Shown one piece after another: positions 7,857 to 34,897 of a stretch of 64,000 bases of DNA; positions within the stretch are counted from its first letter, which is position 1; each line of letters begins with the position of its first letter. The notes under the pieces are model-generated. The model ran no database searches. It saw nothing but the letters and a program-made list of their open reading frames with translations, and had not been told where the DNA came from. The stretch is taken from contig JANYJY010000033.1 of assembly GCA_025358295.1 (NCBI GenBank), positions 1-64,000 of the forward strand, given 5' to 3'. The translations under genes and the position numbers were made by a program. The DNA is from Gammaproteobacteria bacterium. Its GTDB lineage: Bacteria; Pseudomonadota; Gammaproteobacteria; Steroidobacterales; Steroidobacteraceae.

Positions 7857-12068
<4,212 letters not shown>

Positions 12069-12095
12069 AATAATAATAAGCATCTGAAAGATATG

Positions 12096-12128: not shown

Positions 12129-12304
12129 ATTCAGGAGGGGTGTTACTACGAAGCTGATCAACAAGAGCTTACATATTAAAGATTGAGTTGTTAGATACCT
12201 CGGTTGGACTTGAGGTCGCGAAGCACTGCGCGATCCGGCTTCTCGAGTAGAGGATCCTCTAGGATCCCTTAAAGCGGGTGCTGCTGATACAAATCGGGCT
12301 CTCG

Positions 12305-12448: not shown

Positions 12449-12449
12449 G

Positions 12450-13400: not shown

Positions 13401-13477
13401 GGTGATTGCTTTGATTTATGTTCCCACTACATTATGGCCGCAGGGTCCGGCACCGCGCGAATTTACGAGATGCGGTG

Positions 13478-14368: not shown

Positions 14369-14422
14369 GTTCGACCGCAGTTTGCACGAGTCTGAAATAA
14401 GTAGCGATCATCGATATAGAAT

Positions 14423-15034: not shown

Positions 15035-15439
15035 GAGCAGCAGGCTGGTTTCGGTGTTGGAGATCCCGTCGATGAGACGAATCCGGCTCAAGACTCGATC
15101 AACCGCTTCCAGGCTGTCGGTCTTGAGTTCTGCGACGATGTCCCAACGACCGTTAGTGGTGTGCAGGGCGCAGACCGCGGGGTCGCCGCGCAGACTCTTC
15201 AATACCTCGTCGGTTCGATTGCCTTCCACCGCCACAGTCATCAGGGCTCGTATGCGCTGATCCTCGTCTTGCGGTTTGAGCTTGACCGTGTACCCAACGA
15301 TGGTGCGGTCCTTCTCCAGCCGTGCGAGACGGTTTTGCACCGTGCCGCGAGCGACCTGCAGAGTCTTCGCCAAAGACGCCACGGATAGGCGGGCGTTATC
15401 GCGTAATAACGAGAGGAGCCGGCGGTCGGTTGCGTCCAT
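15017..15439 (-). CDS. Lrp/AsnC family transcriptional regulator
   Basis: The 140-residue protein has an N-terminal helix-turn-helix (MDATDRRLLSLLRDNARLSV...LAKTLQVARGTVQNRLARLE) and a C-terminal RAM/ligand-binding domain. ATG at 15439 was chosen because GGAG stands 7 bases upstream; an upstream in-frame start gives an atypical leader. It is divergent from ornithine cyclodeaminase, so it probably controls the ocd-arginase-putA operon in response to an amino acid such as arginine, ornithine or proline, and may repress itself from the shared 149-base region. Confidence 0.92.
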   Translation of the reverse strand: MDATDRRLLSLLRDNARLSVASLAKTLQVARGTVQNRLARLEKDRTIVGYTVKLKPQDEDQRIRALMTVAVEGNRTDEVLKSLRGDPAVCALHTTNGRWDIVAELKTDSLEAVDRVLSRIRLIDGISNTETSLLLSTHKF

Positions 15440-15461
15440 GGAGTATCTCCGTGAAGGGCAA

Positions 15462-15528
15462 GATATTGTGCAAAACGTCAAAAATCCCTGACGATATTGC
15501 CAGAATACCTCGCTTTTTGATCAATATT
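15462..15528. promoter_or_regulatory. Repeated GATATTG motifs, candidate Lrp-family operator
   Basis: GATATTG occurs at 15462-15468 and again at 15493-15499, exactly 31 bases apart (about three helical turns). An inverted relative, CAATATT, lies at 15522-15528. All sit in the divergent promoter region between the Lrp-type regulator and ornithine cyclodeaminase. Helically phased half-sites fit the wrapped binding of Lrp octamers. The assignment is inference from spacing and location. Confidence 0.5.
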
Positions 15529-15588
15529 CTGTCTTTTCATTGGCTCGCTACACCCCGACACTTACCATTGGCTGTTGTGGGGGAAGAC

Positions 15589-16653
15589 ATGGTCGATTAC
15601 ATAGGCACCGCGCGCCTGCGCGAACTTCTGTCCCGAATCGGGCCTGCGCGCTTTATTGAAGAGCTGGCCGGCGAGATTGAGGCTGATTACAAGCGTTGGA
15701 ATGAATTCGAGAAATCAGCTCGGCTGGCCAGCCATTCCTCCGTCGGCGTCATCGAGCTCATGCCCACCAGCGACGGCAAGCTGTACTCGTTCAAATACGT
15801 CAACGGTCATCCGAAGAACACGGCGAGAGGATTGCTGACCGTCACCGCCTTCGGCGTGCTGGCGGATGTGGCCACGGGCTATCCCCTACTGCTGTCGGAG
15901 ATGACCTTCGTCACCGCCTTGCGAACCGCGGCGATCTCTGCACTGGCGGCGAAGCATATGGCGCGGCCCGACAGCCGGGCGATGGCAATCATCGGCAACG
16001 GCGCCCAAAGCGAATTTCAGGCCATCGCCTTCCAACGCATCGTGGGCATTCGCGAACTGCGGCTGTTTGATACCGACGCTCGCGCCACGACCAAGCTAAT
16101 TCGCAATCTGACGCGCCTGCAAATTCCCGATCTCAACGTGGTGCGCTGCGCATCCACGGCGGAAGCCGTGCGCGGCGCCGATATTGTGACCACGGTGACG
16201 GCCGATAAGTGCAACGCCACCATACTCACGCCGGACATGATCCAACCCGGCATGCACATTAATGCCGTGGGCGGCGACTGCCCCGGCAAGACGGAATTGC
16301 ACGTGGATATTCTGCACATGAAGGATGTGCATATCGTGGTTGAGTTCGAACCCCAGGCGCGCATCGAGGGCGAGATTCAGCATCTCGGCGGCGAGGGTCA
16401 GGTCACCGAACTTGCGGACGTCCTACTGGGCAAACAGCCGGCGCGAATGAACGACCGCGATATCACCCTATTCGATTCGGTGGGATTTGCTCTCAATGAT
16501 TTCTCGGCGCTGCGCTATTTGCAGCGCTTGAACGCTGAGCAGCCCGACGGCGGGCAGCGCATCGACCTCATTCCCGAAGTCGAAGACCCGAAGGACTTGT
16601 TCGGCGGGCTGGCGCAGGAGCGGGCGAATGCACGCCGCCGGAAGATTGCATGA
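15589..16653 (+). CDS. ocd: Ornithine cyclodeaminase
   Basis: This 354-residue member of the OCD/mu-crystallin family converts L-ornithine to L-proline and ammonia with bound NAD. The Rossmann motif IIGNGAQSEFQAIAF, the TALRTAAISALAAKH block and INAVGGDCPGKTEL are diagnostic of true ornithine cyclodeaminases. ATG at 15589 follows GGGGGAAGAC; the longer in-frame extension upstream lies in the promoter region. The gene overlaps arginase by ATGA, so the ornithine made by arginase can pass directly to this enzyme. Confidence 0.93.
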   Translation: MVDYIGTARLRELLSRIGPARFIEELAGEIEADYKRWNEFEKSARLASHSSVGVIELMPTSDGKLYSFKYVNGHPKNTARGLLTVTAFGVLADVATGYPLLLSEMTFVTALRTAAISALAAKHMARPDSRAMAIIGNGAQSEFQAIAFQRIVGIRELRLFDTDARATTKLIRNLTRLQIPDLNVVRCASTAEAVRGADIVTTVTADKCNATILTPDMIQPGMHINAVGGDCPGKTELHVDILHMKDVHIVVEFEPQARIEGEIQHLGGEGQVTELADVLLGKQPARMNDRDITLFDSVGFALNDFSALRYLQRLNAEQPDGGQRIDLIPEVEDPKDLFGGLAQERANARRRKIA

Positions 16654-17609
16654 TGACCATCGCGGGCCGCGCCGCCAGTCTCATCGGCGCGCCGACGGAC
16701 ATCGGTGCCAGCGATCGCGGCGCCTCCATGGGTCCCGAGGCATTACGGGTGGCCGGCATCCACGCAGCGCTGTCTGAGCGTGGGCTCGACGTGGTGGATT
16801 GCGGCAATGTCAGCGGACCACCGAATCCCGGGTTGAAGAGGGTGGACGGCTATCGAAATCTCGAGCAGGTGACGGCGTGGAACCACGAAGTTCATGACGC
16901 CGTGTATCGTGAATTGCGCGAACTTCGCCTGCCGATATTGATGGGCGGCGATCACTGCTTGAGCATAGGCTCGATCTCTGCAGTGGCCCGCCATTGCCGC
17001 GACACCGGCAAGTCGCTGCGCGTGCTGTGGCTGGATGCCCATACGGACTTCAATACTCGCGAGCTGAGCCCAAGCGGCAGCTTGCACGGCATGCCCGTGT
17101 CCTGCCTGTGCGGCTTCGGTCCTCGTGAGCTTTTGCAGATTGGCGGGGTGACTCCCGCGATCAGCCCGAGCTGGGTGCGCCAGGTGGGCATTCGCAGCGT
17201 CGATACAGGCGAGCGGCGTTTCGTGCACGAGCAGGATCTCGACGTCTTCGACATGCGCTGCATCGATGAAATGGGCATGAGGCGGGTGATGGAACTCGCA
17301 CTCAAAGACATGGACGCAGATACGCATCTGCATGTGAGTTTTGATGTTGATTTTCTCGATCCGGAGATCGCGCCAGGCGTGGGTACGACGGTGCCGGGCG
17401 GCCTGGGCTATCGGGAGGCCCAGTTGTGTATGGAAATGATTGCCGATACCGGCCTGCTTGCCTCGCTGGACATCATGGAACTGAACCCTGCGCTGGACGT
17501 GCGCAATAAAACGGCGGTGCTCGCCGTGGATCTGGTCGAGTCGCTGTTTGGTAAGAGCACATTGATGCGCAAACCGCTGGCAATTCAGGGCGCTCTTATC
17601 GATACTTGA
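16650..17609 (+). CDS. rocF: Arginase
   Basis: The 319-residue enzyme hydrolyses arginine to ornithine and urea at a binuclear manganese centre. Metal-binding motifs are complete: GGDHCLSIGSI, WLDAHTDFNT and SFDVDFLDPEIAPGVGTTVPGG; the last is the arginase form and differs from the agmatinase-like protein at 12450. Translation is coupled to ocd through an ATGA overlap. No urease genes are in the window. It supplies ornithine for the cyclodeaminase and so feeds PutA. Confidence 0.94.
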   Translation: MMTIAGRAASLIGAPTDIGASDRGASMGPEALRVAGIHAALSERGLDVVDCGNVSGPPNPGLKRVDGYRNLEQVTAWNHEVHDAVYRELRELRLPILMGGDHCLSIGSISAVARHCRDTGKSLRVLWLDAHTDFNTRELSPSGSLHGMPVSCLCGFGPRELLQIGGVTPAISPSWVRQVGIRSVDTGERRFVHEQDLDVFDMRCIDEMGMRRVMELALKDMDADTHLHVSFDVDFLDPEIAPGVGTTVPGGLGYREAQLCMEMIADTGLLASLDIMELNPALDVRNKTAVLAVDLVESLFGKSTLMRKPLAIQGALIDT

Positions 17610-20807: not shown

Positions 20808-22394
20808 GTGAAGCGGTTTTCCTATCTACGCCTCGTCCCGGGCGACGTGAATGGTTTCTTGGGGCTGGTGGTCGACAATCTGTCTGTGTTGGCTCTGCTC
20901 GCCGCCGTTCTGATCGGCGGCTTCGGCATTCCGGCCCCCATCGTGTTCGGCCGCATGTTTCCGGGAACTGCCTTGGGCGTGTTGGTGGGAGATCTGGTCT
21001 ACACCTGGCTGGCACTGCGGCTGGCGCGCCGCACGGGCCGCAACGACGTCACCGCCATGCCGTTTGGTTTGGATACGCCCTCGACCATTGGCATGGTGCT
21101 CTTGGTGCTGGGGCCGGCATTCCTGAAGTTCCGCGCCGCCGGCCTGGATCCCATGTCGGCGGGACTCGAGACTTGGTATCTCGGCATGGCCGCGACCGCC
21201 ATCATGGGGCTGCTGAAATTCGTCATGGCCTTTGGCGGCAGAACCTTGCGACGCCTGGTGCCGCAGGCGGGATTGCTGGGTTCCCTGGCGGGAATTGCAT
21301 TGATGTTGATCGGCTTCTTTCCCATGATCGAATTGCTGCAGGTGCCCATCGTGGGATTCCTCACCTTGGGACTAGTGCTGTATGCCCTGGTCGCCAAGGG
21401 CGCGGTGCCGGGTGGTTTGCCCGGAGTGCTGTTCGCGGTGTTCGTCGGAACCGTCGCCTATTACGCTCTGGGACATTGGGGCGTGGCCGGGATGAGCATT
21501 GCCTCACCGACGCTGCCGACTCTGCGACTCGCTTTTCCTCATTTTGATCCCCGAATCGCGCATGGTTTTGCGGGCGTCGCGGCCACCCTGCCGCTGATCG
21601 TTCCCTTTGCATTATTGACGGTGATCGGCGGGGTCAATAACACGGAAAGCGCGCGAGTCGCCGGCGATGAGTACGACGTCAGGAGCATTCTGCTGGCCGA
21701 AGCCGCGGCGACGCTGTTGGCGGGACTCGCGGGCGGCGTCGCACAGACGACTCCCTACATCGGCCACCCCGCGTACAAACAAATGGGCGCGCGCGCCGGC
21801 TATACCTTGCTCACGGGATTATTTATCGGTTTGGGCGGCATGTTCGGCTACTTGTCGAATCTGATCGAATTGATTCCTCTGGCGGTGCTGGCGCCGGTGC
21901 TCGTGTTCCTGTCATTGAATATCACCGTGCAGGCATTCAGCGCCGTGCCCCTGCGCCATGCACCGGCGGTGGCCATCAGTTTCTTTCCATCGATTGCGCG
22001 CCTGCTGACCATTGAACTCAGCGATTCGAAGTTCATTGCACCCGAGCGTTTCGCGCAGCTGATGGGTGCGGCCGAGCACGGCCTGCCTGCCTTGGCGGTG
22101 ATCGTTGCTCTGGGCAACGGCTTCATCATCACCGCCACCCTATGGGCGGCGTTCGTCGTGGAAATGACAGAGCGCCGGCTGCGGGCCGCCGCCGCCTACC
22201 TCGTGGCCGGAGGCGTGCTGTGTTGCTTCGGGATCATTCACTCCGTGCGTGCCGACGGCAGCGCCTATGCGCTATGGGAGCTCCACGGGGTGGCGCGCAG
22301 TGTCGCCGGCCAGTTCTGCATCGCCTACTTCGTTCTGGCCGGGGCCATGTGGTTGCTGTCTCTGCGCTCGCCCGAGGCCGGACAGTCTCGCTAA
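20808..22394 (+). CDS. NCS2-like (xanthine/uracil permease-related) membrane transporter
   Basis: The 528-residue protein has about 12-14 hydrophobic segments with the SLC23/SLC26-like arrangement. Signature-like stretches include PGDVNGFLGLVVDNLSVLAL at the start, ARRTGRNDVTAMPFGLDTPS and GGVNNTESARVAGDEYD. The substrate cannot be read from sequence; its place directly behind arginase and putA suggests an amino-acid-related or nitrogenous compound, which is inference. It starts with GTG, 21 bases after putA, and has no strong ribosome binding site. Part of its 3' end is copied at 35020-35178. Confidence 0.65.
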   Translation: MKRFSYLRLVPGDVNGFLGLVVDNLSVLALLAAVLIGGFGIPAPIVFGRMFPGTALGVLVGDLVYTWLALRLARRTGRNDVTAMPFGLDTPSTIGMVLLVLGPAFLKFRAAGLDPMSAGLETWYLGMAATAIMGLLKFVMAFGGRTLRRLVPQAGLLGSLAGIALMLIGFFPMIELLQVPIVGFLTLGLVLYALVAKGAVPGGLPGVLFAVFVGTVAYYALGHWGVAGMSIASPTLPTLRLAFPHFDPRIAHGFAGVAATLPLIVPFALLTVIGGVNNTESARVAGDEYDVRSILLAEAAATLLAGLAGGVAQTTPYIGHPAYKQMGARAGYTLLTGLFIGLGGMFGYLSNLIELIPLAVLAPVLVFLSLNITVQAFSAVPLRHAPAVAISFFPSIARLLTIELSDSKFIAPERFAQLMGAAEHGLPALAVIVALGNGFIITATLWAAFVVEMTERRLRAAAAYLVAGGVLCCFGIIHSVRADGSAYALWELHGVARSVAGQFCIAYFVLAGAMWLLSLRSPEAGQSR

Positions 22395-22409
22395 CGGAGA
22401 CTATCCGGC
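22379..22409 (+). terminator. Hairpin at the permease stop codon
   Basis: The end of the permease gene forms a hairpin: ACAGTCTC (22382-22389) faces GAGACTAT (22397-22404) and the outer bases extend the stem, with one mismatch. The TAA stop lies in the loop region. No T-run follows, so this is a weak or Rho-assisted terminator at best. The same hairpin survives in the rearranged copy near 35086, with the mismatch at a different position. Confidence 0.4.
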
Positions 22410-22504
22410 CATAGCCTTCGCTCAATCCCTGCTTGCGCCGGCAGTCTCGGCCAGGCGCGTCGGCTTCTCGGAGTGGTTGGGGGTTGATTCTTCACTCATT
22501 GACG

Positions 22505-25500
22505 TCAGTCGCGGAGCCCAAGGGTGACGATGCAAGTATGTTCAAGGCCGTCGTCCGCGAGCGCAATTGCCTCCGCACGGGTGCCGTCCACCGATAGTGA
22601 CTTGACGCCACGCGAGACTTTATCGGGATTGAGAACAGTAATCCGGTAGCGCGAGGAGTGATGAGTGTAAGTGATTTCAAATTCCTCCCAGGCCTTGGGA
22701 ATGCAGGGATCGACAACGAGCCGGGAGCCGCGTACGCGGACTCCCAGGATTGCTTCGACAGCCGTGCGGTACATCCAAGCGGCGGACCCGGTATACCATG
22801 TCCAACCGCCCCGACCCCGGTGGGTGGGCGCCGTATAGACATCGGCGCAGGCCACATAGGGCTCGACCCGGTAGCGATGAATACCGGAACGGCTGCCATG
22901 GTTGATGGGGTTCAGCAGCGCGAATAGTTCGCCGGCTCGATCGCCGTCTCCCAGTAACGCAAACGCCAAGACCGTCCACAAGGCCGCGTGGGTGTACTGG
23001 CCACCGTTCTCGCGTAAGCCTTTCGGATACGCCATCACATAGCCAGGATCATGCTCGGCCCGATTGAAGGGCGGCGTAAACAGCTGGATGAGTCCATCAC
23101 TGCGATTCACGAGCTGGCGGTCGACCGCGGCCATGGCGCGAGTGGAACGAATCGGGTCCGCGGCTCCTGAAATGACGGCCCATGATTGGGCGATGGAATC
23201 GATCAGACATTCCTCGCTCGATATGGATCCGAGGGGTGTGCCGTCGTCGAAGTAGCCACGGCGATACCAGTCGCCATCCCAGGCCTCGCGCTCCGCTGCC
23301 CTTTGGAGCGCAAACGCGTGCTTACGCCACCGCGTGGCGGCGTCGGAGTCACCGCGCTGCTCGGCTAGGGGCGCGAATCGAATCAGAGTGGCGTGCAGGA
23401 ACCAGGCCATCCAGACGCTCTCGCCTCGGCCTTGGGCACCCACGCGGTTCATGCCATCGTTCCAGTCGCCCGTTCCAAACAGCGGCAGCCCGTGTGAGCC
23501 GACGCCAAGGCTTGAGTCCAGCGCGAGAACACAGTGTTGATAGAGGGTGGCCATGGCGCCCGCCGCGGGCGTCCAGCAGCGCTCATCCACCCCGTCGGCC
23601 AGGGGTTCACCCACGAGAAATGGCACGGACTCGTCCAAGATCGCCGAATCCTCGGTGACATCCAAGTAGTGAGAGAGCACATACGGCAGCCAGAGACGAT
23701 CATCCGCGATTCGGGTTTTGACGCCCAAACCCGAGGTCGCCAGCCACCAATGCTGAACATCGCCCTCCGGGAATTGTCGTCCTGCCGCGCGCAATAGATG
23801 CTCTCTCGCGAGGGCGGGCATGGCTACACACAGGGCCATGACATCCTGGAGTTGATCGCGAAATCCATAAGCGCCACTTGATTGATAGAACGCTGCCCGG
23901 GCCCACACTCGGCAGGCGAGTGTCTGGTAGAGCAGCCAACCATTGAGCAACACATCCATGGAGCGGTCCGCGGTTTTGACTTGGATGACCCCCAGCACGC
24001 GCTGCCAGCTATCGGTGACTTGGCTAAGGATGGCATCCAAATCCGCGGCACGGTAACGTTGGATTAGGGCGGCGGCTTCCATGGTAGAACTTGCCACCCC
24101 CAGGAGCAGAATGAGGGTTTTTTCCTCCCCCGGCTGTAGCTCAATCTGGGTTTGCAGGGCGCCACAGGGATCGAACCCGCCGCCCACGCGACCCGAGAGA
24201 GGATCCGAGGATAGGAGAGCGGCGGGTTCGGCGAGCGTGCCGTGCCTGCCGAGAAACTCCAGTCGATCACCGCTCATGCTTTGCTGTGCCCCGCCGAGGT
24301 CAAGAAAGGCGACTTGGCCCTGATATTCCGCGGCGTTCCAGGGATTACGGGCTAACAGGGCGCCGGTCGCGGGTTCCACAGCCGTCACGAGAAAGGGCGC
24401 GGTCCTGCTGCGGCGATGGCCCAGTACCCACTCCAGGTAGTGGGTTACGGTTAATTTCCGCGCACTCCCCGAGTGGTTGGTGAGCGTGAGTCGGCCGATT
24501 TTCACCGAGTCCGCCAGCGGGACAAATTGGAGTAACTGCGCCGCGATGCCGTGAGATTCGTGTGCGAAGCTACTGTAGCCAAATCCATGTCGCGTGACAT
24601 ACGATCCGGATGTGTGTCGAATGGGCTGCGGCGATACACTCCACAGTGCGCCGCTCTCGGCATCGCGCAGGTAGACCACCTCCGCCGGAGCATTGCTGAC
24701 CGGATCGTTGGACCATGGCGTGAGTTGATTTTGCTGGGCATTCAATGACCAGGTGCTTCCCGTACCGTCCGCGCTGGTCATGAACCCGAACTGGGGATTG
24801 GCAATGACATTGCTCCAAGGTGCCGGTGTCCATTGATTTTCATCCAGTACGATCACGTATTCCTGGGCGCCCGCACAAAACCCGCCCTGGCCGTTGAAGA
24901 ACTCAAGGGACGGCAGGGGAGGTGACCTTTGGGCCCTACTCTCTCCTTCGGGGACGTCACGCGGCGACGGCGCCAGGGGTGGTTCGCGGACTCGGGCGAG
25001 CTGATCGTTGAGCGTCCCACGCCGTGCTGCAAACACGGCGCGCGCCGCCACCAGCAGCAATTTCAGGATTTCTGGGCGCAACGAATCGGCGCGCAGCAAG
25101 AAAATCCCTCCGCGGGCGCCGCCCTCGACCTCGGGCGCGGACTGCGCGCCGCGGATGGCGGCATCAAGAGCCAGTTGTAAAGGCGACGCATAGGAGGGCG
25201 GTAGGTCATTGAGGATGATCAGATCGACGGCGAGGCCTTTGAGTCGCCAGTATTCATGCGCCCGCAAAAGATCGTTCACGATTTTCAAATCATGCTCGTC
25301 ATCGATTCTCACCAGAACAATGGGCAGATCTCCCGATAGGCCGAGCGGCCACACACTGGATTGGCCCAGGTGGTTGTTCTCCAGAATTTCACGGGGCGCT
25401 CTTAAGGATGCATCGGAGTAGATCACGCGATTTGCAAGCCGCTGGAATGTTTGGGCCTCGCTAAAATCGATTCCCAAGTAGCGCAGCTGCACTTGCGCTT

Positions 25501-28500
25501 GGGTCCAGGCGAGCGTTTTCGCTCGTTCAAATGCACCCTTGTCACGATGTTTTGCCGCCAGCGCACACGCCTGCGCCCGACTGGGTGCAACAATGGTCCA
25601 AAATGCCACGCGCGCGGTGTCGCCCGGGGCAATGCGAACGCGTCGTCGCAGCGACAGAATCGGATCGAGCACCGTTCCCACGGAGCCTGAAAGCGGCCTC
25701 GCTTCCATGATCGAGACAGCGTTGCGCAGTTCACGACCGCGGCCGAGAAATTTCCCGCGGTCTGTTTCCACTTGGAGCGTTCCCAGTGCTTCCCCTTCCA
25801 GTGCGCTGACATGGGCGACCCACAACTCGGGATCGGCCGGGTCGCGACGCCGGCGCGTGGCGAGCAAGGCGCCGGTGCTTTCGTCGAACTCCGTTTGTAC
25901 AAACAACTTGGAGAATGCGGGATGGGCCGCATCCGCGTCGGGCGGCGCGAGAACGACTTCCGCATAGGTAGTGATCTCCAATTCTCGAAACCGCCTGCCT
26001 TCATTGGTGATGGTCACGCGCCGCACCTCGGCATTGTCTTCCGAGGACACCACCAGATCCATGCTCGTGAGCAGCGTGCCGTCGCGACGTATAATCTCGG
26101 CGCGATCCTCAAAAAATTCGACTTGGTACGAGTCGGCTTCTTTACCGCTGGGCTGATGGCCCACAGACCATACATCGCCATTGGCCACATCTCGAAGGAA
26201 CACATAGCTGCCGCGGGCATCGCAGGTTGGATCTTCGTGCCAGCGAGTTACTGCGATGTTTTTATACCGACTGTATCCCGACCCGGCGGCCGTCAACATC
26301 ACTGAATAGGTGCCATTCGAGAGCAAGTGCGTGCGCGGGGTGGCGTGATTGACCCCGCTATACTGACGCGGCGCGGCTGTGGATATTTCGCGCGGCGCCG
26401 GCGCGGAAATGATATCCACCTCGGTACGGGAAAAATCCAGCTCGCGCGGCAACTTCTCCTGTAGGAGCAATTCCGTCGCTTGGATGAGAGGATCACTGTG
26501 AAAATAGGTGCGAATATTGCCGTCTTGCAAGATGTTCGCAATCGACACCAACATCATGCCCTGGTGATGGGCCATATAGGCCCGCACCGCCACCGACGTC
26601 TCACCGTGCGGAACGCGAGACGGGGTGAAATCGAGCGCGTCATACCACCCGAAGTGCCCGCGAGCATCCAGGGCTTGCAAGCGCCGGAAATTATGCAGAG
26701 CCGATTTCGCATCAATCATCGCGGCAAGGCCGGTGGCGTAGGGTGCAACGACCGCTTCGTCCGCAAGTCCACGTTGTAGTCCGAGCCCCGGAACGCCAAA
26801 ACTGGAGTATTGATAGGTAAATTCGCGATCCCGGGCATTGAATGCTGATTCGGAGACGCCCCAGGGTATGCGTCTGTCCTTGCCGTACTCGATCTGGCGC
26901 TTGACGATCATGCGTGCCGTTTCTCCGAGCACGCTTCCCTCCGGCTCGCGCATGACCAGGATGGGCATCAAGTATTCGAACATGGATCCTGACCAGGAGA
27001 CCAGCGCAGAACTGCGGTCCACCGGCGTCAGGCGCCGCCCCAGACGGAACCAATGGCGGACCGGCAGGTCTCCCTTGGCAATCGCCACGAAACTGGCGAG
27101 ACGCGCCTCGGATGCCAGCAGATCGTAACAACTGGGGTCCTGTGCCCGGTCGGCGAGGCGAAATCCGATCGACAGCAGTTGACGGTCCGGCTGCAACAGG
27201 AAGTCAAATTCCATTCCCAGCGCCATGGTTCGGGCACGCCGCTCCAGAAGTAGCAGGCGGTCCCTGAGCATCGGCTTTTCTAAGCGCGCTGTATGCGTAT
27301 CGAGCGGGCTCTGCCAATGGCGGCATGCGCCGCCAAGCGCCAGCAAGTGGCCGCACAAATTTCCACTATCAACCGTTGAGATGTACTTCGGGTCCAGCGG
27401 TCTTAAGTCGTGGGTGTCATACCAGTTGTAGCAATGACCGCGGAATTTCTCTAGTTTGTCCAAGGTGTCAAAAGTCGCTTCGAGCCGGTCCAGGGCGGCT
27501 TCCAGGGTGAGCCAGCCGAAGTCATGGGCCGCGACCACGGACAGCAGGTAGAGCCCTATATTGGTGGGCGAGGTGCGGTGGGCCACAATCGGAGCGGGAG
27601 TTTCTTGAAAATTGTCGGGCGGCAGAGAGTGATGTTCCGCCGTCACATAGGTATCAAAATATTTCCAGGTCTCTCGGGCCATGGATTCAAAGGTTTGCCG
27701 CTCGGCAATCGACAAGGCTTGCTTCGGAAGCGGTGCCGAACGGGCACTAATTCGCCGCGCAATCGCCGGCGCGATCAACCACCCGACCAGCCAGGGCGCA
27801 GTGTCCCAGGGAATTTCGCCTGTGACCGCCAAAATAGCGAGCGTCGCACCTATCCCCAGCAACCAGCCTCCCGACATGCGGCCCACGAGACGGACCGCAC
27901 TTTTCTTCGCTTGTGCGCTGGTCGTCCACTCCAGTAGATGACGCCGCGAAACGGCCAACCGATACAGCGTCCTCGCGATGGCATCGCCCGCCATCCAGGC
28001 CTGATCCGCGAGAAATATCAGCCGCAATCCGACCAACGATCCGGCCTGCAGCAACTCGTTGCGGGCGAGTCGACGCGCACCGCCATGGCGCAGATTGAAA
28101 GCTCGTGGAAGCCATGCGGTCAGCCAGGGCAGGAGTACCGGCACACTGATCGCAGCCAAGAAAAAGGCAGTCCATGCCACCGGCGCGCCCATCAGTGCGC
28201 ACAGGGCCGCACCCAGAGCAATCGCAGGGGCGATCAAGGAGCGACGCAGGTTGTCAATCATTTTCCAACGAGCTAGTCCGGTCAGCGAGCCATCACTCAG
28301 TATCCAGGGTAGAAGTTGCCAGTCGCCGCGCGTCCAGCGATGCTGGCGTGCGCTCGCCACCTCGTAACGCGCGGGGTATTCCTCCACGACTTCCACATCG
28401 GAAGCGAGACCGCAACGCGCGAAACTGCCCTCAAAAAGATCGTGGCTGAGCATTTTGCCTTCGGGTACGCGGCGATCGAGCGAGGCCTCGAAAGCGTCGA

Positions 28501-30697
28501 CATCGTAAATACCTTTGCCACTGTAGGAGCCTTCTGCGAAGAGGTCTTGATATGCATCCGACACCGCAAACGCATAAGGATCCATGCCACTTGGGCCGGA
28601 TGAGACACGCTGGAAGAAAGTACCCTCGGAGTCTGTCGGCAGCGCGGGCGTCACCCGCGGTTGCAGGATGCCGTATCCCGATGTCACGCGCCCACGCTGC
28701 CGGTCGAAGACAGGGTGATTCAATGGATGGGCCATCTTGCCGATAAGCGTATATGCGGCGCCGCGCGGCAAGCGGGTGTCCGCGTCCAAGGTAATGACGT
28801 ATCGAACATCCATGGATAGCGCACCGCACCGGCCACCGAGTTCCATAAAACTCGTATCAGTCGCTCCGCGAAGCAGTCTATTGAGCTCGTGCAGCTTGCC
28901 ACGCTTTCGCTCCCATCCCATCCAGCACCCTTCCGATTCATTCCAACGACGGCGACGGTGCAGAAGCAGGAAGCGGCTTTCATTGAGCTGCGCCTGCACT
29001 TGGTTCAACCGCGCGATTCCCGCCTCGGCCACGGCCAGCAGTGCCGTATCCTCCGCGGCGTGTTCGGTGTTCGAGTCACTCCAATCGGAGAGCAGTGCGA
29101 ACTGAATGTAGCCGTCGGAGGTTGCCAAATAGTGCACTTCGAGATTTCGCAGATTCTCCTCGATCTCGGCTGCCGTGGTGAGGAGAATGGGCACCACCAT
29201 CAGCGTGCGCAGTTCCGCCGGCACCCCCGCTTTGAGATCGAGTGCCGGCAAAGCAGCAGGGCGGCACAGGTGGGTGACCGATAAATTAACGATGGCAATT
29301 CCCACATCCGTTGCCGCCAGCAGCGCCGCTCCGATGAGGAGCGCCATCCAACCGGCGCCGGCGGTCAGGGGGGCCTCCATCAGGCACAACGCGGTGAACG
29401 CAGCGGCGAGCGCGAAAACTAGTGTTGCATATCCGGCCACCCCCAATTGCGAGATCGCCCGGACCGCTCGCTCGCGCCAAGAGGCGCGGTATCCCAGCTG
29501 CCTCTCCAATTCCCGCCTGCCATCGCCAATGAGATAGCATCCCGGCTCTCGCGGTGGAGGACTCGACGTCGCACCTCCGGTAGTGGGGCCCGCACTGACG
29601 CGGCGCGCCGTATCCAACGCCCGATGCGTGACCTCCAACTCGGTGTGGGACGAGCGCCTAGCCAACTCTTCGACAGCATGTCGGTACAGGTCGCGGGTGG
29701 CGAAGTCGAATGTTCCATACTGGCTCTGCGAACGCAGGAGTGCATCGACGGTGCTGACGCTTTCGAAAAACTGCGCCCAATCCACGGAGGATATTAGGCG
29801 AAGACTGGTGATGATGTTGCGCACGCTGACGTTGACGGCCCCTTGACGCTGATGCTCGCCGTGTACGAGTTCGTCGGCATTCAGCCCCTGGGCCGCCAAT
29901 GTCTGGTGCAGCCACGCGAGTGCCGGCGTCACCGCCCTGTCATGGTCCCTGAGTCTACGTAACAATTGCGCCGCGAACGCGCGCGGCATGGGCGTGGGGG
30001 TGACGTTTCCGCCCTGGCCTTCGGTGGGGAAGCCCTGAGTGACCCACTGATCGGCGAGGGCGTCCGCCTGCGCCCGCTGCGATAGTCGTGCCACTATACC
30101 GAGCGCGAGTTGGCTCAAATTGTCTATCAGTACCACTCGTAGCGTAATCGCAATGGCCCACAGTTCACCGATGGTCAACGGCCGTATTCGTTGATACGCC
30201 TGGCAATATCGATACAGAGTCTCAGATTCAAAGAGATTGTCGGTGTGGTCAATCAGCCCGACCACAATGCCATACACTCTCGGGTAGCCTAGTAGGACTG
30301 CGTTGGAGAGTTTAGGGAGCTGTGCGTAAAACCCCGAAGGCAGATCGCGCTTGATGGCCTTGATATGCTCGTCGATGATATAAAAATTATCGATGAGCCA
30401 CGCTGCGGCAGGAGTGATCGAGTCTCCGTGACGGAGGCCGCCGACCAGGGCTTGATAGGAGGCATTGAGCGCCTCGGCATTGGATCGCAGGCGACGGGTG
30501 AGGGAGACACCGGCATTGCGGAACGGAAACACCTCCTGCGTCTTCGCCAAGTTCTCTGCGAATGCCTCAAGACGCTCGACACTTAGAATCTCAGGAGGCG
30601 CTGCCTCTTGGCCGGCAAAATCCGCCTGTGATTGCAGTTCAGCGGCGAGCATGGGCATGGGCAGCGGTATAGGCACGTGCGGCGAGACGAATCGCAT
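22505..30697 (-). CDS. ndvB: Cyclic beta-1,2-glucan synthase-like protein (NdvB/ChvB family)
   Basis: This giant of about 2,730 residues has the architecture of cyclic beta-1,2-glucan synthases. Membrane segments at about 420-480 precede a glycosyltransferase core with DADTRLP (about residue 636) and RQHRW (about 787). More membrane segments follow, then a glucoamylase-like domain (WSGSMFEYLMP, about 1236), two GH94-type beta-sandwich regions, and a GH94 catalytic-like barrel with DWNDGMN (about 2411). The product would be periplasmic glucan for osmoadaptation, envelope function or host contact. The start is uncertain: ATG at 30697 or 30658/30652, all overlapping the preceding gene, none with a clear ribosome binding site. 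It is the last gene of a four-gene operon. Confidence 0.88.
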   Translation of the reverse strand: MRFVSPHVPIPLPMPMLAAELQSQADFAGQEAAPPEILSVERLEAFAENLAKTQEVFPFRNAGVSLTRRLRSNAEALNASYQALVGGLRHGDSITPAAAWLIDNFYIIDEHIKAIKRDLPSGFYAQLPKLSNAVLLGYPRVYGIVVGLIDHTDNLFESETLYRYCQAYQRIRPLTIGELWAIAITLRVVLIDNLSQLALGIVARLSQRAQADALADQWVTQGFPTEGQGGNVTPTPMPRAFAAQLLRRLRDHDRAVTPALAWLHQTLAAQGLNADELVHGEHQRQGAVNVSVRNIITSLRLISSVDWAQFFESVSTVDALLRSQSQYGTFDFATRDLYRHAVEELARRSSHTELEVTHRALDTARRVSAGPTTGGATSSPPPREPGCYLIGDGRRELERQLGYRASWRERAVRAISQLGVAGYATLVFALAAAFTALCLMEAPLTAGAGWMALLIGAALLAATDVGIAIVNLSVTHLCRPAALPALDLKAGVPAELRTLMVVPILLTTAAEIEENLRNLEVHYLATSDGYIQFALLSDWSDSNTEHAAEDTALLAVAEAGIARLNQVQAQLNESRFLLLHRRRRWNESEGCWMGWERKRGKLHELNRLLRGATDTSFMELGGRCGALSMDVRYVITLDADTRLPRGAAYTLIGKMAHPLNHPVFDRQRGRVTSGYGILQPRVTPALPTDSEGTFFQRVSSGPSGMDPYAFAVSDAYQDLFAEGSYSGKGIYDVDAFEASLDRRVPEGKMLSHDLFEGSFARCGLASDVEVVEEYPARYEVASARQHRWTRGDWQLLPWILSDGSLTGLARWKMIDNLRRSLIAPAIALGAALCALMGAPVAWTAFFLAAISVPVLLPWLTAWLPRAFNLRHGGARRLARNELLQAGSLVGLRLIFLADQAWMAGDAIARTLYRLAVSRRHLLEWTTSAQAKKSAVRLVGRMSGGWLLGIGATLAILAVTGEIPWDTAPWLVGWLIAPAIARRISARSAPLPKQALSIAERQTFESMARETWKYFDTYVTAEHHSLPPDNFQETPAPIVAHRTSPTNIGLYLLSVVAAHDFGWLTLEAALDRLEATFDTLDKLEKFRGHCYNWYDTHDLRPLDPKYISTVDSGNLCGHLLALGGACRHWQSPLDTHTARLEKPMLRDRLLLLERRARTMALGMEFDFLLQPDRQLLSIGFRLADRAQDPSCYDLLASEARLASFVAIAKGDLPVRHWFRLGRRLTPVDRSSALVSWSGSMFEYLMPILVMREPEGSVLGETARMIVKRQIEYGKDRRIPWGVSESAFNARDREFTYQYSSFGVPGLGLQRGLADEAVVAPYATGLAAMIDAKSALHNFRRLQALDARGHFGWYDALDFTPSRVPHGETSVAVRAYMAHHQGMMLVSIANILQDGNIRTYFHSDPLIQATELLLQEKLPRELDFSRTEVDIISAPAPREISTAAPRQYSGVNHATPRTHLLSNGTYSVMLTAAGSGYSRYKNIAVTRWHEDPTCDARGSYVFLRDVANGDVWSVGHQPSGKEADSYQVEFFEDRAEIIRRDGTLLTSMDLVVSSEDNAEVRRVTITNEGRRFRELEITTYAEVVLAPPDADAAHPAFSKLFVQTEFDESTGALLATRRRRDPADPELWVAHVSALEGEALGTLQVETDRGKFLGRGRELRNAVSIMEARPLSGSVGTVLDPILSLRRRVRIAPGDTARVAFWTIVAPSRAQACALAAKHRDKGAFERAKTLAWTQAQVQLRYLGIDFSEAQTFQRLANRVIYSDASLRAPREILENNHLGQSSVWPLGLSGDLPIVLVRIDDEHDLKIVNDLLRAHEYWRLKGLAVDLIILNDLPPSYASPLQLALDAAIRGAQSAPEVEGGARGGIFLLRADSLRPEILKLLLVAARAVFAARRGTLNDQLARVREPPLAPSPRDVPEGESRAQRSPPLPSLEFFNGQGGFCAGAQEYVIVLDENQWTPAPWSNVIANPQFGFMTSADGTGSTWSLNAQQNQLTPWSNDPVSNAPAEVVYLRDAESGALWSVSPQPIRHTSGSYVTRHGFGYSSFAHESHGIAAQLLQFVPLADSVKIGRLTLTNHSGSARKLTVTHYLEWVLGHRRSRTAPFLVTAVEPATGALLARNPWNAAEYQGQVAFLDLGGAQQSMSGDRLEFLGRHGTLAEPAALLSSDPLSGRVGGGFDPCGALQTQIELQPGEEKTLILLLGVASSTMEAAALIQRYRAADLDAILSQVTDSWQRVLGVIQVKTADRSMDVLLNGWLLYQTLACRVWARAAFYQSSGAYGFRDQLQDVMALCVAMPALAREHLLRAAGRQFPEGDVQHWWLATSGLGVKTRIADDRLWLPYVLSHYLDVTEDSAILDESVPFLVGEPLADGVDERCWTPAAGAMATLYQHCVLALDSSLGVGSHGLPLFGTGDWNDGMNRVGAQGRGESVWMAWFLHATLIRFAPLAEQRGDSDAATRWRKHAFALQRAAEREAWDGDWYRRGYFDDGTPLGSISSEECLIDSIAQSWAVISGAADPIRSTRAMAAVDRQLVNRSDGLIQLFTPPFNRAEHDPGYVMAYPKGLRENGGQYTHAALWTVLAFALLGDGDRAGELFALLNPINHGSRSGIHRYRVEPYVACADVYTAPTHRGRGGWTWYTGSAAWMYRTAVEAILGVRVRGSRLVVDPCIPKAWEEFEITYTHHSSRYRITVLNPDKVSRGVKSLSVDGTRAEAIALADDGLEHTCIVTLGLRD

Positions 30698-32111
30698 CGG
30701 ATTGGCTGGGGTAGGTATGCTTGATCTGGGCAAGGGCGCGCATACCCACCTTGGCGTGCATGATAATGGCCATTTCGTTGATCATTTCACTGGCGCGTGA
30801 GGCGACGATCGAGGCTCCAATGATTTGATCGGTACCCGCCCGAACATGAATCTTCAAGAACCCCTCGTCTCGTCCATCGGTGATGGCACGATCCACGTCC
30901 TGCATAAGTATGGTGTAGGTGTGCACAGGAATGGATTGCCGATGGGCGTCCCAGATGTGCATGCCGATGTGCGCGATTTCAGGATCGCAGTAGGTGCATC
31001 GAGGAGCGACAATTGCGTAGTGGGACATTTCGGCCTGGAGTAAGGCATTGCGGACCGCGATTTCCGCCGAGGCTTCGGCGACATTGACGAACCGGTGACG
31101 CATGCATACATCGCCCGCGGCATATACCGCTGGATTACTGGTCCGCAGGAAATCATCCGTCTCTATTCTGCCGTCGGCGTGCCGAACCACTCCCGCGGCG
31201 GCGATCTGTAGAGCGGAGGAATTGCCGCGGCGTCCCACGCTGACTAGGATCTCATCCACGGCCAGAGTATAACGATCGCCTGCACTCTCGGCGTCAATCA
31301 GCTTTTCCGAGTTTTCGCGGCGGACGGCCGCGATGGTGGTATTCAGCCGAATTTCCACTCCGGAGCGGGCCAAAGAGAGCGACAGGAGTTCGGCGGCGTC
31401 TCGTTCCTCACACGGCAGGAATTTAGGCTGATCCTGCAAGATGGTGACACGCGATCCGAAGTGGGCGAAGGCTTGCGCCATCTCACAACCCAAGGGACCG
31501 CCGCCGATAATGGCCAACCGACGGGGTAGACGGTCGAGTTGGAATAGTGCTGTGCTCGTTAAGTATCCGGTAGATTGCAGACCGGGAATATCGGCGCCCA
31601 TGGGACTGGACCCCGTCGCAATCAGCGCTTTGGTGAAATGCAGATTCAGCGCCTGTACTTGGATGAGACTGGGTCCGGCAAATTCAGCCTGTCCAAAAAA
31701 TACGTCAATGCCCATGTCGGTCAAACGAGCAGCCGAATACCGCTCGGCGATTCGGCCGCGGATGGCACGCATACGCTGCATCACCGCTCGGAAGTCGGCC
31801 GGCGGAGGGACGCAGGGAGGGCCGCCACAGCGCTGGCTGTTGGCAATCGCCTCGTAGGCGCGGCCGCTCCGCACCAGCACTTTCGAGGGAATGGAACCCG
31901 CATTTAAAGAATTGCCCCCGAGTTCGGCACGCTCGATGAGCGCGACACGGTGGCCTGATTGGGCAGCTAGTAGGGCCGCAGACTGCCCCGCGGGACCGCC
32001 TCCGATGACGACGAGATCGTACCGGGGTTGCGGCGCTGGATTCGCCCAGCGGGGTGGTCGAACTCGGTGCAGATAGTCATCCGAGTCTGGCAATTCGGCA
32101 TGCGGGATCAT
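30639..32111 (-). CDS. FAD-dependent disulfide-reductase-like protein lacking redox cysteines
   Basis: The 490-residue protein is a class I pyridine-nucleotide disulfide oxidoreductase relative close to MerA-like enzymes. It has the FAD site VVIGGGPAGQSAALLAA, the NAD(P)H site AIIGGGPLGCEMAQAF, the second FAD site VYAAGDVC, and a C-terminal dimerisation domain with HTYPSQSD, in place of the usual H-P-T-x-E type pair. The redox motif reads GGNSLNAGSIPSK: Ser68 and Ser73 replace both active-site cysteines. It therefore cannot run normal dithiol chemistry but could still be a flavin-dependent dehydrogenase. The start at 32109-32111 overlaps the stop of the glucoamylase-like gene (ATGA). Confidence 0.88.
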   Translation of the reverse strand: MIPHAELPDSDDYLHRVRPPRWANPAPQPRYDLVVIGGGPAGQSAALLAAQSGHRVALIERAELGGNSLNAGSIPSKVLVRSGRAYEAIANSQRCGGPPCVPPPADFRAVMQRMRAIRGRIAERYSAARLTDMGIDVFFGQAEFAGPSLIQVQALNLHFTKALIATGSSPMGADIPGLQSTGYLTSTALFQLDRLPRRLAIIGGGPLGCEMAQAFAHFGSRVTILQDQPKFLPCEERDAAELLSLSLARSGVEIRLNTTIAAVRRENSEKLIDAESAGDRYTLAVDEILVSVGRRGNSSALQIAAAGVVRHADGRIETDDFLRTSNPAVYAAGDVCMRHRFVNVAEASAEIAVRNALLQAEMSHYAIVAPRCTYCDPEIAHIGMHIWDAHRQSIPVHTYTILMQDVDRAITDGRDEGFLKIHVRAGTDQIIGASIVASRASEMINEMAIIMHAKVGMRALAQIKHTYPSQSDAIRLAARAYTAAHAHARR

Positions 32112-33406
32112 GGATTTAACCAGCCCCCCTGAAAACCCGCGGCTTGAAGTCCGGCGCGTAGGACTGAGGACTGGCCCGCCAACTTCCAAATGAGGCCCGA
32201 GCGGAAATTCTCAATCATCATAACAAGCAGACCTTGATCCAGTCCGTACCAACCCTCGGACAGCCACGGCGAGCCCTGAACCACGACACTCGGGTTAAAT
32301 CCGCTCACAAACCGCTCGTGCACGCACACCTGCGGATAGCGTGCCAGTAGGTGGCGGGTTCCCATCAACGCTGCGGCCGGAGCAAAGGGCAGCGCGGCCA
32401 ACATGGCCCACGGGCAGAGCGTACCGTCGTCCGGACCAAACGGCGCACCGCGTGCCATGTAACCGAAGTGGCGTTGATCGCGAGGAGACAAGGCCGTCGC
32501 ATTGGCGGGCCCGTCGCCGGCGCTGATGCCCCACAGCGTGCGCGAGTAGCCGGTAAATCCCCGCGGGTTTCGCGCGGCGTATTCTCGCTGAACTGCAATA
32601 GCACTTTGGGTGTTTTGGAAGTAATCGCTCTGCACTTGACGCATAAAAGGGTCGCGTATCTGTCTGAAGTCTATCCACGCATGGGAAAATAAATGCGTGA
32701 ACAGGGGGCCCGAGTAGAGTGTGTCAATCCCCAATAGGTTTTCCCATTGGTAGGTCGCCGTCCAGTTCGTAAAGCACGTCGGCGGAAGGAGATTCGCGGA
32801 GGATCCCATGGCGAGCACATAGAGTAGGGTCGCCTCGTTATATCCTTCCCATCCGTAGTGCAGGAATCCTGTTTCAGGCTTCCATCCTTGGGCCAGGGTG
32901 TCGCCTCCATTTAACGCCCACGGCCATTCGACTCTGTCGACAAGGCCGCTGGCGAGCCGGCGGATGTGCGACTCCCGCGCCTCACCGTCGAAGTACGCCG
33001 CCGCCGTCAGCGCTCCTGCCAGGAGCAACGCCGTGTCGATGAGCGACAACTCACAGCCCCAAACACGGCGGCCGGTGTGCATATCTAGAAAATGATAATA
33101 GAAGCCGCGATAGCCGCTGGAATTTGGACGCCCCCCCTGATCGCTGTCCCAAAAGAACTGCAAGGTCTTTAAAATCAGGGTCGCGGCCTCATCACGCGTG
33201 ATCCAACCGCGTTCTACGGCGATGGGATAACAGGACAATGCAAAACCCACCACCGCAATACTGCAGGGGGAAGCGGGCCGCGACGTGTCGGCTATCAAAC
33301 CGCTACTATCCTGCCGGTAGTCTAGAAAATACCCGAAGGCGGCCTGCTGCAGCCGGTCGATGAGCAGCTCATCGGCTATATCATCGGCCGCCTCTGGGGC
33401 CGACAT
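32108..33406 (-). CDS. Glucoamylase-like glycoside hydrolase family protein
   Basis: The 432-residue protein resembles the glucoamylase-like domain (PF10091 type) that also occurs inside NdvB. Motifs include AAFGYFLDYRQDSSGLIADTS, YRGFYYHFLDMHTGRR, WPWALNGGDTLAQGWKPETG, YGWEGYNEATLLYVLA and GLDQGLLVMMIENFRSGLIW. No signal peptide is evident, so a cytoplasmic or atypically exported protein is likely. It probably trims or remodels the glucan made by the downstream synthase. Its ATG overlaps the receiver gene stop (TAATG) and its stop overlaps the flavoprotein start, so the genes are tightly coupled. Confidence 0.85.
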   Translation of the reverse strand: MSAPEAADDIADELLIDRLQQAAFGYFLDYRQDSSGLIADTSRPASPCSIAVVGFALSCYPIAVERGWITRDEAATLILKTLQFFWDSDQGGRPNSSGYRGFYYHFLDMHTGRRVWGCELSLIDTALLLAGALTAAAYFDGEARESHIRRLASGLVDRVEWPWALNGGDTLAQGWKPETGFLHYGWEGYNEATLLYVLAMGSSANLLPPTCFTNWTATYQWENLLGIDTLYSGPLFTHLFSHAWIDFRQIRDPFMRQVQSDYFQNTQSAIAVQREYAARNPRGFTGYSRTLWGISAGDGPANATALSPRDQRHFGYMARGAPFGPDDGTLCPWAMLAALPFAPAAALMGTRHLLARYPQVCVHERFVSGFNPSVVVQGSPWLSEGWYGLDQGLLVMMIENFRSGLIWKLAGQSSVLRAGLQAAGFQGGWLNP

Positions 33407-33801
33407 TAATGTATGGAACCCGCGCGTGCGCCATCAGACAGAATTTCGCGAAGAATATCGGGGAACCGTTGCACATCACGCGCTTTGTCTAAAAAATATC
33501 GCGCGCCCAGAGAAATAGCTTTCTGTTCATAGGGAGCGGAATCATGGTTAGTCAGAACAATAACGCAGGGCTTTTGCTGAAGGTTGCCGAGCGCATGCAG
33601 AACGCCAAATCCTGATCCCTGTTTCAATTGCAGATCCAGCACCACCACGTCGATATGCCGCTTGCGAATCTCGATCAGGGCGCTCGCCTCCGAATCAACC
33701 GCTTTGATCAAGTCGATTTGCGGGAAATCGGCAATCGTCTCGGTCAAGTGGTTCGCAAGCACTGCAGAATCTTCTACGAGGAGTAACTTGACCGCGCGCA
33801 T
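33406..33801 (-). CDS. Stand-alone receiver-domain response regulator
   Basis: The 131-residue protein is a single CheY-like receiver domain: acidic pocket residues E10 and D11, phospho-acceptor Asp56 in VVVLDLQLKQGSG, a Thr/Asn switch area (VLTNHD), and Lys in FLDKARD. No DNA-binding or enzymatic output domain follows. It is the first gene of the operon with the glucoamylase-like, flavoprotein and glucan-synthase genes and overlaps the next gene by one base. No partner histidine kinase is adjacent. The ribosome binding site is poor. Confidence 0.9.
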   Translation of the reverse strand: MRAVKLLLVEDSAVLANHLTETIADFPQIDLIKAVDSEASALIEIRKRHIDVVVLDLQLKQGSGFGVLHALGNLQQKPCVIVLTNHDSAPYEQKAISLGARYFLDKARDVQRFPDILREILSDGARAGSIH

Positions 33802-34254
33802 GGCTACAACGAATGGCCGTTTGCAGGGCTCATCGCGAGAAAACTCAATAGCAGTCTATGGTTCATGATGTCGGCACTCGTGTTTGAGGCAGGTCGTTTG
33901 ACAGGAATCGAACATACGCGCTTCGATCTGATCCCACGAAATCTCACCGTGAGATATCCCTTAAAAAAGCCAAAACGTAAAAACCGATAAATCTACCGTG
34001 CTTGTGCTGTACATTTTTGACGCGATTCGACAATTTAAGTAGTCGTTCATTCCCCCGCTCGTGCGTACGATATTTCCTACAGACAGGTATATTCCGACGC
34101 GAGTGCTACGGAGTTTGATCGAACATTGTTCGAATGTGCCTTGTCAGCCAATGCCTACGGTTCAACAGGGGATAACCTTGTTTCGAAGGTCCGCTTTTTT
34201 GAGCTCAAATGCCAGCCTGGGTTACTGACTGGATTGGCTTCGTAGGGGAAAGGC
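33802..34254. promoter_or_regulatory. 453-base AT-rich divergent intergenic region with two palindromes
   Basis: No gene is visible in this gap between the receiver operon (minus) and the Ku remnant (plus). It is clearly more AT-rich than its surroundings, especially 33955-34060. It contains two perfect 15-base palindromes: ATCTCAC-C-GTGAGAT at 33941-33955 and TCGAACA-T-TGTTCGA at 34119-34133. Either could be an operator. No confident promoter could be chosen by eye. Confidence 0.5.
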
Positions 34255-34897
34255 ATGTCGCGGGCTTTGTGGAAGGGCGCAATTTCCTTCGGTTTGATAT
34301 ACGTACCGGTGGAGCTGCACACCGCGTCGAAGGACAATGCCTTGCCGATCCGTATGCTTGACAGTCGCGATTTTGCCACCGTGGGCTATCAGCGCGTCAA
34401 CAAAAGGACTGGCAAAGTCGTCGATTGGTCGCATATCGTCAAGGGCTATGAGTACAAGAAGGGCGATTTTGTAGCGCTCGCAGATGCGGATTTTAAGCAT
34501 GCCAACGTGAAGGCGTCCGAGACCATTGCGATCGATACCTTTTGCAATGTCTCTGGAATACCTACGATGTACTATGAAAAACCGTATTACCTAACCCCTT
34601 CGAAAGGCGGCGAAAAAGTATATGCGCTGCCGCGCAAGGTCCGCGAGGAGACTCACAAGGTCGCGGTTGCAACCTAGCGGCAACATCTTTGCGCGATCAC
34701 GCCGCAGAAAAATGCGTTGATGTTGCTGACTCTGCGATTTGCAGACGAAGTGCTGCCCGCAACGGAACACCTGTCGACCGCCAAGATCAGCGCGGCGGAA
34801 TTGGCCATGTCTCATGGCGGCCCTCAAGGCTAGCCTGGGCAAATCGCCGCAGCCTAAGGCGGGGCATGGCGCCGGCAAGGGGCGCAAGATCGCCTGA
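34255..34897 (+). pseudogene. ku: Broken Ku (non-homologous end joining) gene
   Basis: The start MSRALWKGAISFGLIYVPVEL is an intact Ku N-terminus with a good ribosome binding site (GGGGAAAGGC). Ku similarity runs to a TAG stop at 34675-34677 and then resumes in the same frame with RQHLCAITPQKNALMLLTLRF and ADEVLPATEHL. A large internal deletion and frame change follow, and a Ku-like basic tail (MAALKASLGKSPQPKAGHG) ends with TGA at 34895-34897. Ku binds DNA ends and recruits LigD; this copy cannot make a full protein. No ligD is seen in the window. The first 140 residues could still be translated as a fragment. Confidence 0.88.

Follow-up and report, generated by a model that had tools for sequence, protein, structure and literature searches.

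Four genes on the minus strand of the stretch of DNA analyzed here (the window, in its full length of 64,000 nt), at positions 22505–33801, encode a lone receiver domain (REC), a GH144-like protein (GLA), a flavoprotein (FLV) and a cyclic β-1,2-glucan synthase (CGS) of the NdvB family (NdvB). We hold with roughly even confidence that this operon is an intracellular β-1,2-glucan synthesis-and-turnover unit under phospho-signal control. This interpretation is preferred to that of an earlier sequence-only reading, which saw a dedicated, signal-controlled system for glucan synthesis or modification, in that it combines synthesis with turnover and takes in gene links to UDP-glucose and the pentose phosphate pathway. 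CGS enzymes build and cyclize glucan from UDP-glucose and phosphorolyze it through their GH94 part; their glucans matter in symbiosis, infection and osmotic adaptation, and FeuP/FeuQ control cyclic glucan export in Sinorhizobium.

GLA and the glucan synthase

The solved structure closest to GLA is that of XcSGL (XCC2207, Xanthomonas; PDB 8XUL, 337 bits), with 41.7% identity across 415 aligned positions. GLA residues E191, F236 and Y316 correspond to the XcSGL clan residues E239, F286 and Y367, while D124 is the candidate base (E142 in CpSGL); the acid E191 and D124 are both kept in 81/81 alignment rows. The AlphaFold2 model of GLA (predicted local distance difference test [pLDDT], 83.5 overall) forms a single (α/α)6 barrel nearest to XcSGL and CpSGL, with a template modeling (TM) score of 0.88 against GH144 structure 8XUL as compared to 0.71, at 13% identity, against GH189 domain 8WY1. 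The nine chains with the best fold match all belong to XcSGL, CpSGL, a Parabacteroides β-1,2-glucanase and three “putative glucoamylase” entries. The sequence-only reading had taken GLA for a free copy of the glucoamylase-like fold found inside NdvB. The common fold stands, but close kinship does not: BLASTP similarity between GLA and NdvB reached an E of 0.17 only, placing GLA outside GH189 by similarity, and a copy of the NdvB GH189 domain was rejected on this value together with the low identity at TM 0.71. Clan-level fold likeness to the GH189 domain would also be expected if GLA, as a relative of the NdvB cyclase domain, had no catalytic activity and served as a chaperone or regulator; the retention of acid and candidate base in every row, and the much greater nearness to GH144 than to GH189, make this extremely unlikely.

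XcSGL is a GH144 endo-β-1,2-glucanase of narrow specificity that was expressed without its predicted signal peptide (PMC12102758). No export signal was visible in the 81 GLA rows, for which the Kyte-Doolittle maximum over 9-residue stretches of the first 35 residues, with start codons picked by hand, was at most 1.76. Four XcSGL-type relatives (L195–L198; 40–43% identity) gave highest values of 2.02–3.02 in signal- or lipoprotein-like stretches, although these were scanned over all candidate starts and the test thus differs from that on the 81 rows; L191 and L200 likewise attain 2.02 when internal starts are taken. Fold, catalytic residues and the lack of a visible export signal together point to GLA being a cytosolic GH144-type hydrolase, and GLA-type proteins can be read as falling into two putative kinds, one exported and without a CGS nearby, the other cytosolic and often accompanied by a CGS.

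NdvB matches Agrobacterium tumefaciens Cgs (PDB 8RF0/8RF9) with 2366 bits over query residues 81–1147 and 1155–2716. Tyr720, aligned with the primer tyrosine Y694 of Cgs, is the predicted primer tyrosine, and E1209 and E1295 of the GH189 domain align with E1356 (acid/base) and E1442 (nucleophile) of the TiCGS cyclization domain (PMC10834661). A GH94 part is present by Pfam. The soluble domains of Cgs all face the cytoplasm, to which the primer chamber also opens (PMC10901819).

Gene linkage of GLA

Relatives of GLA were found by a scan of genome contigs, and the best 80 of 408 (L035–L114) were used as loci for comparison. Clustering of GLA with CGS, in differing gene orders, was confirmed in several lineages beyond this genome. 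The exact order REC-GLA-FLV-NdvB, whose conservation the sequence-only reading had proposed to check, occurred nowhere but in the window across the 80 GLA loci and the relatives examined; the order was rejected as a conserved unit, short of proof in that several loci end at contig edges (the sequence of L035, the nearest relative, stops within FLV, possibly with NdvB behind). Nine other loci (L049, L051, L052, L054, L061, pACRY01, L199, L200 and L201) have a CGS no more than ∼5 kb away from GLA. Five of these belong to the 80 and have a CGS with its GT84 part: CGS and GLA are divergent neighbors in L049, L051 and L052, divergent with GH39 in between in L054, and on one strand with FLV in L061 (Pseudomonas sp. 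TH41; NdvB, GLA, FLV). At L050 just the C-terminal end of a CGS is visible, at a contig edge, and 14 further loci carry GH94 sequence belonging to the C-terminal half of NdvB but no GT84 part (L075 is truncated at a contig end), so that NdvB-family GH94 occurs in 20/80 loci. On the Acidiphilium cryptum plasmid pACRY01, NdvB (8430 bp) and the SDR-GMC-GH39-GLA-FLV genes are divergently oriented.

A class sample was drawn evenly as 369 genomes (cut-offs, E ≤ 1e-100 for GLA and E ≤ 1e-150 for FLV). CGS lay within 4 kb of GLA in 4/9 GLA genomes (the window, L199, L200 and L201) and in none of the other five (G270, G025, G192, G344 and G452). L199 reads GLA-NdvB-HAD-pgm on a single strand; in L200 (G426, 9508–17228), GLA is divergent from an NdvB-like synthase split in two overlapping open reading frames (1767 and 807 aa). 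A Kup-like potassium transporter gene, below curated cut-offs, follows the split NdvB. L201 holds galU-pgm-GLA-gnd-zwf-pgl-NdvB on one strand, with genes overlapping or nearly so. This galU-to-NdvB operon rests on one genome, since GLA was present in 1/14 genomes of L201's order, namely L201 itself.

Neighbors of GLA in the 80 loci were counted by direct searches up to ∼11 kb from GLA, with query identities from NCBIfam, because neighborhood clustering with single linkage merged families (transketolase with glucose-6-phosphate dehydrogenase). Genes found were gnd (16 loci), tkt (13), pgm (9), pgi (7) and zwf (6), with at least one of gnd, tkt and zwf in 21/80. These pentose-phosphate neighbors, together with galU and pgm in L201, suggest that the glucan may be made from and returned to glucose-1-phosphate and glucose-6-phosphate. 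On the Polaromonas plasmid pPNAP02 (NC_008758.1 65415–84671, L183), pgm, phosphoketolase, acetate kinase, tkt and gnd stand beside GLA, where FLV was neither annotated nor found.

Among the 77 loci that extend 400 bases or more downstream of GLA, FLV comes after GLA in 67 (68/80 overall), and 52 of the 68 FLV genes start at exactly −11, −4, −1 or +2 from the GLA stop, start codons being hand-picked. The ten loci without FLV were nine from Mesorhizobium and L111, in which a later direct search did find FLV. Protein distances of GLA and FLV correlate over 67 pairs (r = 0.896, common descent of the species included; 1000 permutations reach at most 0.219). Among plasmid records, 53 match GLA (E ≤ 1e-60) and six match FLV (E ≤ 1e-110), and all six of the latter carry GLA immediately ahead of FLV. 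In the class sample, GLA (nine genomes) and FLV (six) were mostly apart: G000 alone had both, 8/9 GLA genomes lacked FLV, and 5/6 FLV-profile matches lacked GLA, these five being 36–41% identical to FLV and in other gene contexts. An obligatory pairing of FLV with all GLA proteins was thereby ruled out, and the pairing is a property of a single clade. Some of the five FLV genes without GLA adjoin a VTT-like membrane gene, judged by reading the sequence.

FLV, REC and operon layout

The FLV motif GGNSLNAGSIPSK has serine at both redox-cysteine positions (S68 and S73), so the CxxxxC pair of flavoprotein disulfide reductases is absent from the window FLV, as the sequence-only reading had noticed, and no cysteine is found close to the C terminus. 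Tyr467 sits where lipoamide dehydrogenase has its catalytic histidine, a place at which MerA also has tyrosine. The model (pLDDT 87.1) adopts the two-domain FAD/NAD(P) fold of MerA and lipoamide dehydrogenase. Against the PRK06370 model NF004991 (cut-off, 620) the window FLV scored 603.9, with relatives L061 (748.3) and L077 (690.4) above. Across 67 FLV rows including the window (fragments below 350 aa, L053 and L105, excluded), the pair was SS in 21, CC in 32, CG in 9, RC in 2, and ST, SC and SG in one each. CC versus not-CC requires a minimum of seven changes on a quick tree built with the redox-pair columns included, six of them forced by well-supported branches. Ser-Ser marks the clade of the window FLV and does not define the family. 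Since the pair varies by clade, disulfide chemistry is not what conserves FLV, which likely keeps a function that needs no disulfide. MerA and lipoamide dehydrogenase are the best solved relatives, and plasmid records annotate FLV as mercuric reductase, which would suit a mercuric or other disulfide reductase with no part in glucan metabolism; that is very unlikely, given a score of 354.6 bits on the mercuric reductase model TIGR02053 (cut-off, 454.45), the missing cysteine pair in the window and the repeated changes of the pair among relatives. On score and missing pair together, mercuric reductase itself was rejected.

REC carries the phospho-site residues D11, D56, T84 and K106 and, in agreement with the sequence-only reading, has no output domain. 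Among 60 genomes of relatives, 13 contain a relative of REC (E ≤ 1e-12) as well as a gene of the NdvB family (E ≤ 1e-30), which lie within 6 kb of each other in 9/13 (five full CGS, four GH94-only); in two of the remaining four (G013 and G014) the contig ends less than 2 kb from the receiver. In a family sample of 150 genomes, searched with different cut-offs and the receiver of a relative as query, the two were no more than 10 kb apart on a single contig in 7 of the 18 genomes with both. The notion of a dedicated, signal-controlled glucan system gains from the recurrence of GLA-CGS clusters and from the nine receivers near NdvB among relatives, but is weakened by the lower share in the wider sample. 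Neighbors at these loci include a sigma-54 activator, a LuxR-type regulator, an OmpA/DUF4398 protein, a CHASE3-HisKA_3 kinase and DUF883, a set that is not complete in all genomes. L049 has the order NdvB, GLA-FLV-LuxR regulator-REC, CHASE3 kinase, and L052 matches it as far as its contig extends; in L142 (G007), NdvB is accompanied by broken GLA/FLV remnants, a regulator, a receiver and a kinase. The regulator-receiver set also occurs without NdvB (G018, G110 and partly G004). The window REC groups with two receivers not near a CGS (support 96/90), so its CGS link either arose separately or long branches mislead the tree, which gives no support to REC as an orthologue of the NdvB-linked receivers of relatives, which fall in other receiver subfamilies.

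The co-location of lone receiver, LuxR-type regulator and CHASE3-HisKA_3 kinase in relatives also fits REC as a mere phosphate sink or competitor for such a kinase and regulator, with no contact with the glucan enzymes. Single-domain receivers may act as hubs or, alternatively, phosphate sinks, as described for MrrA and LovR (PMC5964349). We regard a sink as possible, though somewhat less probable than not being one: the REC gene of the window overlaps GLA, and the 64 kb hold no CHASE3-type kinase match beyond a scrap of 44% identity (E 0.87).

As side observations at receiver loci, decayed GLA/FLV remnants lie at 15017–15680 of L142 (G007:C30), between NdvB and the regulator/receiver/kinase set, while a second contig of the same genome (L172) has an intact GH39-GLA-FLV set. 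GH94-only proteins of ∼1300 aa, like the C-terminal half of NdvB, are encoded at G000:C36 (L139), L143, L144 and L146, where relatives have full NdvB; these loci have the LuxR-type regulator and lone receiver, three of the four the CHASE3 kinase, and, judged by reading the sequence, trp genes beside the GH94-only gene.

All four window genes lie on the strand and at the positions first claimed (Table 1). As had been claimed, REC and GLA overlap by 1 base, GLA and FLV by 4 bases (ATGA), and the start of NdvB also overlaps FLV, by 14–20 bases if it is an ATG. No terminator-like site was found at the gene junctions (five in 22000–34400, as compared to 10.3 expected by chance), and a promoter scan was uninformative, its three promoter-like sites being below the 4.7 expected by chance. 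Adjoining the operon at 34255–34677 (plus strand) is a Ku (PF02735) frame of 140 aa only, covering profile positions 1–136/190; this Ku gene looks shortened or broken. Genes resembling a histidine-degradation (hut) set, judged by eye, lie at 44262–48255 (minus strand).

Table 1. Genes and domains of the four-gene set in the window
Feature	Position	Strand	Description	Basis or remark
REC	33406..33801	-	Lone receiver domain, 131 aa, without output domain	Pfam Response_reg 61.7 bits, sole Pfam family
GLA	32108..33406	-	GH144-like β-1,2-glucanase candidate, no visible export signal, 432 aa	PF10091 236 bits
FLV	30639..32111	-	FAD/NAD(P)-type flavoprotein of PRK06370 kind, 490 aa	Better start is ATG 32111
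NdvB	22505..30733	-	Mechanical start TTG 30733; ATG 30658 or 30652 likelier	8rf9/8rf0 match
NdvB N-terminal and GT84/membrane part	27734..30493	-	About residues 81-1000	Aligned with Cgs
NdvB GH189 cyclization domain	26432..27721	-	Residues 1005-1434	
NdvB GH94 phosphorylase part	22742..24826	-	Residues 1970-2664	Pfam PF06165/PF17167

Proposed glucan cycle, alternatives and known systems

From the sequences, predicted folds, residues and gene linkage, we infer the activity and location of GLA, the direction of flux, the function of FLV and the action of REC as follows. NdvB would build and cyclize glucan from UDP-glucose at the cytoplasmic face, and its GH94 part may phosphorolyze it. GLA would cut not-yet-exported or re-imported glucan into oligosaccharides in the cytosol, and the products would enter glucose-1-phosphate/glucose-6-phosphate and the pentose phosphate pathway, as gene context elsewhere suggests. 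FLV might be a thiol-independent FAD/NAD(P)H oxidoreductase working with GLA, conceivably on a carbonyl or lactone sugar substrate or in NAD(P)H balancing. REC, phosphorylated by a kinase encoded elsewhere, would switch NdvB or GLA through contact, by analogy with Myxococcus xanthus EpsW~P, which reportedly activates EpsZ by contact (PMC12802240).

Several observations weigh against such a unit. No NdvB-family gene was present in the DNA covered at 60/80 GLA loci, and of the 50 loci flanked by 5 kb or more on each side, 13 have NdvB-family GH94 and three have GT84. REC relatives occur in only 2/80 GLA loci (L049 and L052), to which are added the grouping of the window REC and the separation of GLA and FLV in the class sample, both described above. 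No pentose-phosphate genes were seen beside the window operon, and no chvA-type (NdvA/ChvA) exporter above cut-off in the window's genome. In Mesorhizobium (L063–L113), GLA-FLV or GLA alone stands beside exopolysaccharide-type genes (by Pfam, GT4 and Anp1/Gly_transf_sug glycosyltransferases near GLA in L066). The GLA model is weak (pLDDT <50) at residues 169–187. GH144 includes an exo-acting enzyme (PMC11842490), so that GLA may be endo- or exo-acting. Separately, sugar transferase and Wza-like genes were recognized at Mesorhizobium loci by reading the sequence.

The many loci without NdvB fit an alternative in which GLA-FLV is an independent sugar-oxidation or stress module, its substrate is not CGS glucan and its place before the window NdvB is a chance fusion. 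Consistent with this, GLA often stands alongside GH39 (in 20/80 loci; directly upstream of GLA in 19 clustered loci), SDR, GMC oxidoreductase and gluconolactonase. The alternative stays alive because an SDR/GMC/DoxX/cupin/VOC/SMP-30 set recurs near GLA in four loci (all six in L037 and L047, without GMC in L056 and without SDR in L059), and most of it on two plasmids. However, the nine other loci with a CGS near GLA in varied orders, and the GLA without FLV that shares a strand with NdvB in L199 and L201, speak for a tie to glucan synthesis, and we judge the independent module unlikely.

The synthesis-and-turnover unit could be taken further, to a proposal that we advance tentatively and consider rather unlikely as it stands: cyclic β-1,2-glucan would be, besides an exported osmolyte, an internal, turned-over glucose store, with CGS and a cytosolic GH144 hydrolase forming a cycle connected to GalU/Pgm and to the oxidative pentose phosphate pathway. 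A lone receiver would switch this cycle, and a flavoenzyme whose family lost its redox disulfide more than once would aid it. The families of the parts are known; what is new, as far as the open-licence PMC titles listed show, is their combination, a GH144 type that has no visible export signal and is linked to genes for CGS and the pentose phosphate pathway, and the flavoprotein that sheds its disulfide. No title among the open-licence PMC papers listed dealt with the GLA-FLV pair or such operons, and no account of intracellular recycling of CGS glucans was found in the literature excerpts consulted. Through a GH144-type enzyme of this kind, with such gene links, glucan turnover would become directly testable, and FLV may hold a thiol-independent activity to be found. 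The operon of this soil bacterium hints at glucan production and recycling under signal control.

As compared to Cgs/ChvB of A. tumefaciens and Sinorhizobium NdvB, the window NdvB shows near full-length similarity and keeps the predicted primer tyrosine, the GH189 catalytic pair and the GH94 domain; in contrast, its gene forms one operon with those of GLA, FLV and REC, in a genome where the exporter search stayed below cut-off. FLV has the two-domain fold of the PRK06370 kind, MerA and lipoamide dehydrogenase but differs in lacking the cysteine pair and any C-terminal-region cysteine and, from lipoamide dehydrogenase, in having tyrosine at the histidine place, as in MerA. REC resembles EpsW of M. 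xanthus as a single-domain response regulator tied to polysaccharide synthesis, although EpsZ is a phosphoglycosyl transferase and not a CGS, and partner contact of REC is putative. GLA shares with XcSGL the fold, acid, candidate base and clan residues; it differs in having no visible signal peptide and in that its gene adjoins those of a CGS and FLV.

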